A DNA stretch of 64,000 nucleotides. Source: Pseudomonadota bacterium. Lineage in GTDB: Bacteria > Desulfobacterota > Binatia > Binatales > Binataceae. The notes below the pieces were generated by a model, which was not told the origin of the DNA, searched no databases, and saw only the letters and a list, made by a program, of their open reading frames with translations. Below are positions 7,195-10,178 of the stretch, in pieces; position 1 is the stretch's first letter, and each line of letters starts with the position of its first letter. The stretch is taken from positions 62,001 through 126,000 of the forward strand of contig JAJPHI010000023.1 in assembly GCA_021325355.1 (NCBI GenBank), written 5' to 3'. A program made the position numbers and the translations under genes.

Positions 7195-8346
7195 CTATTG
7201 CGGCCGCACGCCGCGCCCCGTTTCCTCCTCCGCCAGGGAGTACCGGACCAGCATCCGGTAGAGCGTGGAGCGTGAGACCCCGAGCAGACTGGCCGCGCGC
7301 CGCCGATTACCTTCGGTCTCTTCGAGCGAACGGATCAGTGTGCGGCGTATGACCTCATCCAACTTGAGCGGTGTTCCGTCATGCTCCGCGGGAATGGTCG
7401 CCGGCGTCGGTGCCGCCGCGGCGCTGGCAGCCGGGGTCGCCGGCTCGGATGCGATCGTTTCATCGCTGCGGCGCGCCCCATCGTAGACCGAGCGCAGCAC
7501 CGCTTCCGGCAGCGTGTTGATATCGATGCCGTCACCCTCGGTGAGCATCACCGCCGCCTGCAGCGCATGGGAGAGCTCGCGCACGTTGCCCGGCCAATCA
7601 TGCCGTTTGAGGGCTTCGAGGGCCCGCCGCGAGATGCGGCGAATCGATTTGTTGAGTGTGCGGGTATGCTGGCTCAGGAGATACGCCGCGAGCGCCTCGA
7701 GGCCGTCGAGCCGCTCGCGCAGCGGCGGGATCGTGATCGCCGTCGCACTCAGCCGATAGTAGAGATCGTCGCGAAAGGTGCCCGCCTCGACCATTGCCTG
7801 CAGGTCGCGATTGGTCGCGGCAACCAGTCGAAAGTCAACTTTATAGCTTTGCGAAGAACCGACCGGTTGCACCTCGTGGAGCTCGACGGCGCGCAGCAGC
7901 TTGGGCTGCAGGCGCAGCGGCAACTCGCCGATTTCGTCGAGAAACAGCGTGCCACCGTTGGCCGAGCGAAAATATCCCAGCGAGTCCTCGCGGGCATCGG
8001 TAAAGGCGCCGCGAATATGGCCGAACAACTGCGACTCCGCCAGACTCTCCAGCAGATTCGAACAATTGAACGATACGAACGGTCCTTTGGGCGCTGGACC
8101 CAGGAGATGCAGGGCCCTCGCCACCAATTCCTTGCCGGTGCCTGATTCACCATGAATCAGCACCGTCGCCTTGTAAGGTCCCAGACGATTGATGCCGTTA
8201 ACCACCGGGCGCATCCGCTCGGAACCAACCACCATCCCGCCAAGCGTCTCGACCCGCCGCAGCAGGTCGTCGAGCTCGATCCATTCCACCACCGCCCCAT
8301 CCGCAGCGTACTTCGGCCCGGCTTCCGGCGCATAGCTGTGGTCCAT
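7195..8346 (-). CDS. Sigma-54-dependent activator, AAA+ plus Fis HTH, no receiver
   Basis: About 383 residues from the ATG at 8346, which has GGAGCAGGAA upstream; an in-frame start 20 codons earlier is less likely. The AAA+ domain starts almost at once (Walker A GESGTGKE at 66-73; Walker B GGTLFLDEIG near 131-140). The C terminus has a Fis-type HTH (RRRAASLLGVSRSTLYRMLV). There is no receiver or GAF domain, as in PspF. The sigma-54-contacting GAFTGA loop reads GAFTDA at 113-118, so Gly is replaced by Asp. It is a paralogue of the activator at 10813-11907. Confidence 0.9.
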   Translation of the reverse strand: MDHSYAPEAGPKYAADGAVVEWIELDDLLRRVETLGGMVVGSERMRPVVNGINRLGPYKATVLIHGESGTGKELVARALHLLGPAPKGPFVSFNCSNLLESLAESQLFGHIRGAFTDAREDSLGYFRSANGGTLFLDEIGELPLRLQPKLLRAVELHEVQPVGSSQSYKVDFRLVAATNRDLQAMVEAGTFRDDLYYRLSATAITIPPLRERLDGLEALAAYLLSQHTRTLNKSIRRISRRALEALKRHDWPGNVRELSHALQAAVMLTEGDGIDINTLPEAVLRSVYDGARRSDETIASEPATPAASAAAAPTPATIPAEHDGTPLKLDEVIRRTLIRSLEETEGNRRRAASLLGVSRSTLYRMLVRYSLAEEETGRGVRPQ

Positions 8347-8520
8347 TTCCTGCTCCTTCGCGTCTTGCGCTCGCCCGTAGCCGGTGGGCGTGCAGCGTCG
8401 GAGCAAAAGGTGGACCGCCGCTTGATGCGAATTGCTACACTCTTAAGCCTAAATGAAGCAGTTCCGTAACGACGAATTCTTGGCGGCTGACAAAAGCTTG
8501 CCGGCGATCCCGATGGCGCC

Positions 8521-8976
8521 TCAGCCTGTGCGGTCGATCAGCTCGGCGAGCACTTGCGCGGCGTGGTCGCGTGGATCAACACTGTCGTAAACTCGCGCAA
8601 TCCGGCCGCTTTCGTCGATCAGGATACTGATGCGTTTCGCGTAGCGCGCCTTCGGGTTGTCGCACGCGCCGTAGGCCATCCCGAGCGACCGCTCAGTATC
8701 GCACAGGAGGGGAAAGTTATAGCCATTCTTGGCTGCGAACGCCGCGTTTTGCTCGACTGAATTGAAGCTCGCACCGACCACCACGATATTTTCGGCGTCG
8801 AAGTATTCCTTCTGATCGCGGAACCCGCGACCCTCAACCGTTCAGCCCGGTGTATCAGCTTCCGGATAGAACCAGATGAGAACCTTGCGCCCCCGATGGG
8901 CAGCCAATGAAAAACTGCGACCGTCATGGGTCGGCAATTCGAAGTCCGGCGCCAGGTCACCAGCTTTAACCGCCAT
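8521..8976 (-). CDS. Selenocysteine peroxiredoxin (BCP/AhpC-TSA family), in-frame UGA
   Basis: 151 residues if the UGA at 8844-8842 is read through as Sec45. Upstream sequence reads MAVKAGDLAPDFELPTHDGR then VLIWFYPEADTPG; downstream reads TVEGRGFRDQKEYF then VVVGASFNSVEQNAAF, ending LAELIDRTG. The UGA sits exactly where the peroxidatic Cys of the PxxxTxxC motif belongs (P38, T42, U45). The frame is intact on both sides. The resolving Cys usual five residues on is Arg here. Expected job: reduce hydrogen or organic peroxides in the cytoplasm using thiols. A hairpin suited to a bacterial SECIS follows at once. A nonsense pseudogene is possible but unlikely. Confidence 0.88.
8814..8832 (-). promoter_or_regulatory. 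Putative bacterial SECIS hairpin
   Basis: Read on the minus strand, TCGCGG and CCGCGA form a perfect 6-bp stem around loop GTT. The stem extends by a U-G and a G-C pair at its base (GG with TC). It begins 9 bases after the UGA, and the loop begins 17 bases after it with G as first loop base. Known bacterial SECIS elements are stem-loops just downstream of UGA with a G at the start of the loop, bound by SelB. Function is inferred from position and shape. Confidence 0.72.
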
Positions 8977-9032
8977 CCCGTGCCCTCCCGCTTCTCCTCA
9001 GCATCCCGCGTCCGCAGCTCCGGCACAAGCCG

Positions 9033-10178
9033 TCAGGATGGTGACAGCGGATGGCTATCGGGGGTTACCACCTGGCTCGGCGCGGCTTCGTCGGTCCACT
9101 GACGGATAGCCGGCGCGATCACTTCCTCGACTAGCACCTTGCATCCAGCCGCAATCGGAATCGCCACCAGCGCGCCCAGCAAACCACCAACCACGCCGCC
9201 CGCGAAGAGGGCGATAATCACCAGCGACTGCGAGATATCGGTCTGCCGCCGCATGATATTCGGCGCTATCAGATGCCCTTCGATCTGCTCAATCACCAGA
9301 TAGAAAATCACCGTCCAGAGGGCGAGGACCGGCGATTGCAACCAGGCCGAAAGAACCCCGGGGACAGCCGCCACAATCGGTCCGACATAGGGGAAGAACT
9401 CGCCGAAGGCGGCGAGCACGCCGAGCGCCAGTGCGTCGCGCACACCGAGCAGATAGAGGCCGAACCACACTGACGCGCCGACGACGAGCCCGCCGAGAAA
9501 CACCCCGCGAATATAGCCGCCCATCGCGGTCAGCATCCGCTCGACCACCTCGCGGACGCGTTCCTGCTGCTTCAGCGGAAACAGCGAACCGACCGCCGCG
9601 CTGATCTCCGGGAGGGCGAGCAACAGGTAAAAGGACAGGAAGAACATCAGCATGAGGGTGAACAGTCCGCCGAACAGCATCAGCGGAATCGCCGCAAAAC
9701 TGTCCAGATGCGCGGTCACCACCTGACCCAGATGGGGACTGGCGCCGCTCAGCCGCAAAAATCCTTCGTCCAGGCGGAGCTTGATTGGCCGCAGCAGGGT
9801 CCCCGAGCGATGAACAAATTCACCCAGTTCGGCATCCAATTGCGGCACCACGAACCAGGCGGTGGAGATCAGAAAGGCGATCAAGATGAGATAGACGACC
9901 GCCACGGCGACCGCCCGCCCGACCAGCCGCGCGAGTTGCAACGCCGGCGGATCGAGCGCGCTCGCGATCGTCAGACTGAGGATCAGAACCGCCAGGGCGA
10001 ACGCGAACACGCGCAGCGCGAGCAGCAGGCCGAGACCGAGGAAAATCGCAATAGCAAAGGGGATCGCCAGCCGAAACCAACTATCCGGTCGCGTCACCGG
10101 CATCGTGCGCACGATTACCGGCTCGCCGCCGGGGCGATTGACGCCGGTCAGCAAATTTTCTTCTGGTCGCACCAGCAT
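9033..10178 (-). CDS. AI-2E-family (PerM/TqsA) transmembrane permease
   Basis: 381 residues with about seven to eight hydrophobic segments. Examples are FAIAIFLGLGLLLALRVFAF at about 36-55, VAVAVVYLILIAFLISTAWF near 90-110, and a long pair around residues 165-190. Family signature pieces are the middle GVFLGGLVVGASVWFGLYLL, the FGEFFPYVGPIVAAVPGVL stretch and the IEQIEGHLIAPNIM motif. Members export AI-2 or other small molecules, or act as cation antiporters; the substrate cannot be told here. The start follows an AGGTCAGGGGG ribosome-binding site. Inner membrane. Confidence 0.88.
   Translation of the reverse strand: MLVRPEENLLTGVNRPGGEPVIVRTMPVTRPDSWFRLAIPFAIAIFLGLGLLLALRVFAFALAVLILSLTIASALDPPALQLARLVGRAVAVAVVYLILIAFLISTAWFVVPQLDAELGEFVHRSGTLLRPIKLRLDEGFLRLSGASPHLGQVVTAHLDSFAAIPLMLFGGLFTLMLMFFLSFYLLLALPEISAAVGSLFPLKQQERVREVVERMLTAMGGYIRGVFLGGLVVGASVWFGLYLLGVRDALALGVLAAFGEFFPYVGPIVAAVPGVLSAWLQSPVLALWTVIFYLVIEQIEGHLIAPNIMRRQTDISQSLVIIALFAGGVVGGLLGALVAIPIAAGCKVLVEEVIAPAIRQWTDEAAPSQVVTPDSHPLSPS

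Follow-up and report, generated by a model that had tools for sequence, protein, structure and literature searches.

Selenocysteine (Sec) peroxiredoxins with a TxxU motif, assigned to COG1225 (Bcp), are treated as an established prokaryotic selenoprotein family in the available portions of three papers (PMC9312934, PMC1088965 and PMC13188914), and the accessible part of a 2006 survey has them on record for several Deltaproteobacteria (PMC1794560). The gene described here, found in the window (the whole stretch of 64,000 nucleotides that was analysed), is for this reason regarded as a new member and not as a new kind. As far as the descriptions in these excerpts reach, no decisive difference separates the COG1225 Sec peroxiredoxin from the window protein, and both belong to one Pfam family, have a TxxU/PxxxTxxU site and carry within the coding sequence a hairpin of the SECIS-like type. 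The AhpC-TSA/BCP fold and the TxxU active site occur together in the window protein. The Deltaproteobacteria label applied in the consulted part of PMC1794560 is also borne by named relatives of the window gene. In a scan of contigs with the single protein, four close loci come from MAGs labelled ‘Deltaproteobacteria bacterium’; the fifth of the five loci so obtained (L055) was dropped as a spurious alignment.

Among the other described peroxiredoxins, the Cys form of BCP/PrxQ shares the fold and the active site with the window protein but differs in that the peroxidatic residue of the latter would be Sec and no Cys stands five residues further on, and against the NCBIfam BCP equivalog model PRK09437 the window protein scores 113.8 bits, below the cut-off of 140. 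AhpE (a 1-Cys peroxiredoxin by the titles of its PDB entries, and one which we take to be a Cys enzyme) has a similar fold, with a TM-score of about 0.85, and a weaker sequence match of 43 bits. PrxU (NCBIfam NF040737), whose type is presumably the Sec peroxiredoxin from Eubacterium acidaminophilum, is also a peroxiredoxin model, however the window protein reaches only 30.6 bits where 270 are required and thus falls into a different subfamily. A literature search combining Binatota and selenoprotein found no paper. What is added here is a well-supported selenoprotein, truncated by stop-bound ORF calling, in a group with selA in 50 of 57 genomes; for specialists, the points of note are the repeated exchange of Sec and Cys and the Sec forms devoid of the +5 Cys.

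Reading frame and predicted protein

The peroxiredoxin gene occupies positions 8521-8976 on the minus strand and comprises 151 residues, running from an ATG at 8976-8974 to a terminal TGA at 8523-8521, with a Shine-Dalgarno-like GGGAGG of presumed function in the upstream sequence, 7 nt 5' of the ATG (8984-8989, minus strand). One further TGA (8844-8842) stands in the frame as codon 45, at the place of the peroxidatic (seleno)cysteine and at the same codon as in close matches from the class, and the frame is open and conserved on either side of it. The initial annotation had described an intact frame around a single UGA at the peroxidatic Cys and gave no strand for it; this is confirmed for the minus strand, where P38, T42 and codon 45 of the read-through translation match PxxxTxxC exactly as had been proposed (P38/T42/U45). 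The truncation to 87 residues predicted there can be seen in the mechanical ORF list, in which a single 87-aa piece (8521-8784) is all that appears in the peroxiredoxin frame. The Pfam AhpC-TSA model matches the read-through protein at 9.8e-30 over residues 6-127, a range which spans the UGA. A plus-strand reading of 8521-8976 was rejected, as it contains two TGAs and by eye does not resemble a peroxiredoxin. An Rfam scan of 8000-9500 returned a single chance-level match, far under its gathering score, and a sigma-70-like promoter was looked for and not found.

The AlphaFold2 model of the read-through protein, computed with 16 sequences from the window and the loci, has a pLDDT of 94.3 and a pTM of 0.89, codon 45 opens a helix (residues 45-54) in it, and BCP, PrxQ and AhpE are among the folds nearest to it; by sequence, the solved structures that match best are BCP-type peroxiredoxins. 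According to the proposed mechanism, SelB, guided by a hairpin just past the UGA, would deliver Sec-tRNA(Sec) to codon 45, and decoding of the UGA would give a full-length BCP/PrxQ-like peroxiredoxin with selenocysteine as its peroxidatic residue. In the P38/T42/U45 pocket, where helix 45-54 begins, the selenolate would reduce peroxides and be oxidised to a selenenic acid; C105, an external thiol or thioredoxin may then resolve the latter.

Concerning resolution, the earlier statement that the usual resolving Cys is absent holds for the +5 position and fails beyond it. Five residues past the peroxidatic residue, which we take to be the position of the resolving Cys in the E. coli type of BCP, the window protein has an arginine (codon 50, 8827-8829, minus strand), so that it is not a 2-Cys BCP of that type; further on, it has cysteines at positions 92 and 105. 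Residue counts over the relatives, from which the partial L065 and L070 were left out and L068 was set aside, found Cys at position 50 in none of 38 Sec-form rows (0/24 in the earlier and 0/14 in the later-fetched set) and in 6 of 26 Cys-form rows (6/20 and 0/6), one record being counted twice among the latter because L093 lies wholly inside L054. Cys 105 (codon at 8662-8664, minus strand), the candidate resolving thiol, is mostly conserved in Sec forms (21/24 and 13/14) and is also retained in Cys forms (15/20 and 5/6), therefore it characterises the clade and not Sec. We favour a course in which the oxidised Sec residue would be resolved either by C105 or with the help of an external thiol.

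Codon 45 in relatives and the Sec machinery

A search of 57 genomes, including the window's own, gave a peroxiredoxin match at E<=1e-10 in all 57. Readings of codon 45 were obtained for 55 loci, and after removal of the spurious L055 and of three duplicates (L051-L053, which repeat L028, L030 and L047 and were left out of the hairpin, shuffle and loop counts) it is TGA in 26 genes from 26 genomes, own included, and TGC or TGT in 25 genes, four of which (in G000 and G001) are remoter paralogues. In the window's class, 61 matches at E<=1e-40 were obtained in 58 of 148 genomes; 38 are flagged with a TGA and 23 are without a stop, own included in the total. The TGA lies exactly at codon 45 in 38/38 flagged matches (24 read earlier and 14/14 fetched later, the window's own among them), which bears out the earlier argument that its position at the catalytic codon is more than chance, and Cys is found there in 21 of the 23 unflagged matches, the two unread ones being from G312 and G332. 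Only TGA, TGC and TGT occur at this codon in the homologue rows that were read; the column check suggested in the initial annotation thus gives Cys as the residue exchanged for Sec in all rows read. A TGA flag in G052 was rejected, its codon 45 being TGC and the flagged TGA being the terminal stop of the gene; an extra stop flag in G038 is likewise the natural gene end, and G306 is also flagged.

Among 247 genomes of the phylum, the close clade (E<=1e-38) was met in four, all of the window's class, and in none outside that class. Cys homologues of the close clade are 52-66% identical to the window protein, and a tblastn search of plasmids with the peroxiredoxin returned 165 records, each under 60% identity. 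Three genomes (G004, G018 and G028) carry a Sec copy and a Cys copy of the close clade side by side.

The Sec machinery, whose absence the initial annotation had named as a ground for abandoning the Sec reading, was found in full in the window's genome, and that reading stands: selA (563 bits), selB (375 bits), selD (377 bits) and a tRNA-Sec (70.5 bits; ARAGORN likewise finds it, with TCA as the anticodon) were all detected in this draft of 35 contigs and 95% completeness. The selD gene (L010:1501-2427; G000:C29:60086-61012) has an in-frame TGA of its own, in GUAGK. It is thus the second gene of this genome with such a codon, and the selenophosphate synthetase is on this ground likely to be a selenoprotein itself. 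Over the 57 genomes, selA exceeds the cut-off in 50, among them 26/26 genomes with the TGA gene, and a tRNA-Sec of at least 66 bits is present in 23 of these 26, G011 and G036 having weak matches and G054 lacking any at the threshold applied.

The coincidence of TGA genes with detected machinery has an exception in G035, a genome of the window's class. No selA, selB or selD over the cut-off was found in it and its tRNA-Sec match has just 45.8 bits, yet four of its five peroxiredoxin-family matches have TGA at the catalytic site; the sites concerned are TPGU (L096), TGGU (L097), WUPYC (L098) and WUPKC (L099). In G048, which is placed in one family with G035, a single contig carries selD, selB and selA inside 4.6 kb, and so the absence of all three from G035 could come from one gap in the assembly; such a gap, a recent disappearance of the machinery or another cause may account for G035. 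For G010, which has no selA over the cut-off, the presence of selB, of a TGA-bearing selD and of a tRNA-Sec of 74.2 bits makes it probable that just selA fell into an assembly gap. A selD gene over the cut-off and with no internal stop is seen in two genomes that have no selA over its cut-off (G026:C4:113763-114689 and G032:C46:22678-23610), where it perhaps serves another use of selenophosphate. Absence of the TGA form from the seven genomes without selA over the cut-off (Fisher p 0.012) was rejected as evidence, as it is true for the close clade only; in these seven, a reading of codon 45 is available for the best match of G010, G042 and G052 and also for G035, and the best match in G026, G032 and G046 was judged by the absence of an internal stop. 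Detected machinery is consequently an imperfect guide in draft genomes, and the window's genome is not affected by this.

The hairpin downstream of the UGA

Just past the UGA lies a SECIS-like hairpin (8814-8832, minus strand), GGTCGCGG-GTT-CCGCGATC, in which an 8-bp stem carries a 3-nt apical loop GUU (8824-8822) that begins 17 nt past the UGA and has G as its first base. The rule for bacterial SECIS elements, as stated in the available part of PMC13188914, asks for a loop of 3-9 nt, an upper stem of 4-16 bp and G within the first two loop positions, with a distance of 16-37 nt after the UGA and an MFE at or below -7.5 as further terms, and the window hairpin agrees with it in stem (8 bp), loop (GUU) and distance (17 nt); the fold energy of -19.5 kcal/mol belongs to the whole 66-nt stretch and not to the hairpin by itself. 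Taken singly the hairpin is not unusual in the DNA of the window: against dinucleotide shuffles its z is -0.30, and among 204 TGA sites of the window with open flanks, that of the peroxiredoxin included, four others score as high as or higher than the peroxiredoxin site. The convincing part is the comparison across genes.

When synonymous codons are shuffled with the protein kept, the window hairpin obtains p 0.003, and p<=0.05 is reached in 14 of 26 TGA genes against none of 25 Cys genes, p being above 0.05 in the other 12 TGA genes; one of the TGA genes, L068 (G055), has a poor hairpin with a shuffle p of 0.28. With L068 set aside, the GTT loop is present in 20 of 25 in-clade TGA genes vs 1 of 21 Cys genes. 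The later-fetched set, which includes members of genera met before, has it in 13/14 TGA genes vs 1/6 Cys genes, one of these six (L093) having been counted earlier as L054. The GTT loop fixes a glycine codon as GGG, a codon which makes up 66 of the 467 Gly codons elsewhere in the same genes. By these comparisons, TGA genes keep the hairpin beyond the needs of the protein, and most Cys genes have lost it.

Another hairpin, CGGATTC/GAATCCG, is common to L061, L062, L064 and L070, and L046 keeps its shape as GGGCTC/GAGCCC with two pairs altered on both sides in a compensatory manner; this alternative SECIS-like form, with its loop 21 nt after the UGA, occurs in other families of the class. The two hairpin classes (20 genes of type 1 and five of type 2) were assigned by hand once the hairpin and shuffle results were known, for which reason figures of pairing within a class hold partly by construction, and the loop counts and the later set are fairer.

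Alternative readings, Sec/Cys exchange and gene neighbourhood

Past codon 45, dN/dS is 0.07-0.27 in eight gene pairs, and the seven pairs with computable values before it gave 0.06-0.26, dS being close to saturation in some of the pairs; to judge from these ratios, the part 3' of the UGA is kept as protein under purifying selection. Such low values past the TGA speak against a pseudogene or an error, in which a Cys codon would have been misread or a nonsense mutation would be recent. One changed base would suffice for either, many copies having TGC or TGT at codon 45, and the window's genome is a draft of 35 contigs, nevertheless 38 genomes (own included) agree in having TGA at this codon, G001 of the same genus and the single-contig assemblies G050 and G298 being part of this number, and an explanation of this kind is very improbable. 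To an equally small degree it may be thought that the UGA is read as another residue (for example Trp or Cys) or is passed by leaky read-through free of Sec. The frame is indeed open under any sense reading of TGA, and the G035 genes show that codon where no Sec machinery was detected, but TGA is also the terminal stop of the peroxiredoxin gene, the Sec machinery of the window's genome is intact, and the exchanged residue is Cys in all rows read.

The most improbable reading is that the UGA is a true stop, with a peptide of 44 residues made before it and the 87-aa ORF behind it giving a product of its own. The mechanical ORF list, with the 87-aa ORF alone in the frame, is in its favour; against it, the active site is complete in neither piece, the two sides match a single family, and the downstream part is under purifying selection. 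It is, with high confidence, preferred to see the window gene as a functional selenoprotein gene, in which Sec would be placed at codon 45 of a BCP/PrxQ-like peroxiredoxin by a SelB guided by the hairpin. Its basis is formed by features of the sequence, namely frame, machinery, conservation, hairpin and selection, which agree with the initial description as a likely selenoprotein (the machinery, the column of Cys and TGA only and the SECIS-like hairpin after the UGA in particular), and from which we infer the insertion of Sec itself, the peroxidase activity and the resolution of the selenenic acid.

The clade further offers a natural series on the timing of bacterial Sec/Cys swaps within one enzyme. 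On a tree of 49 rows, from which L065 and L070 were omitted, the Sec and Cys labels change 12 times, vs 16.6 times for shuffled labels, at least seven changes being forced by well-supported branches and 10 changes remaining when the four outgroup paralogues are taken away; in this tree the outgroup does not form one side of a branch, being joined by L068, and 14 of the 46 inner branches are open. A Cys gene, L032 (from G029, with TGT), is sister to the TGA gene L029 (from G020) at 100/99, and retains at L032:1633-1677 the 5-bp stem and GTT loop of that sister. The best reading of L032 is a recent change from Sec to Cys which has left a putative fossil SECIS, a base error being possible as G029 has 88% completeness and 8% contamination. 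The portion consulted of the 2006 survey counts five Cys-to-Sec events and no Sec-to-Cys event for peroxiredoxin (PMC1794560), so that L032 looks like a case of the type absent for this enzyme from that part of the survey. It is tentatively proposed, with rather more doubt than confidence, that the clade may be a hot spot of two-way exchange between Sec and Cys, as the reversal and fossil SECIS of L032 suggest, and that its Sec forms may use the clade-specific resolving Cys105 and not a +5 Cys.

As regards the neighbourhood, a gene for an AI-2E-type transporter lies upstream and was seen beside the peroxiredoxin in the window's genome only, within the short flanks. The next gene downstream (7195-8406, minus strand) encodes a sigma-54 activator/Fis-type regulator, and among the loci fetched 12 other genomes have a similar gene adjacent to that of the peroxiredoxin, a count in which many loci have short flanks and L043 contributes just a 51-residue match; a functional link between activator and peroxiredoxin is possible. 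The activator adjoins peroxiredoxin genes of both the Sec and the Cys form.
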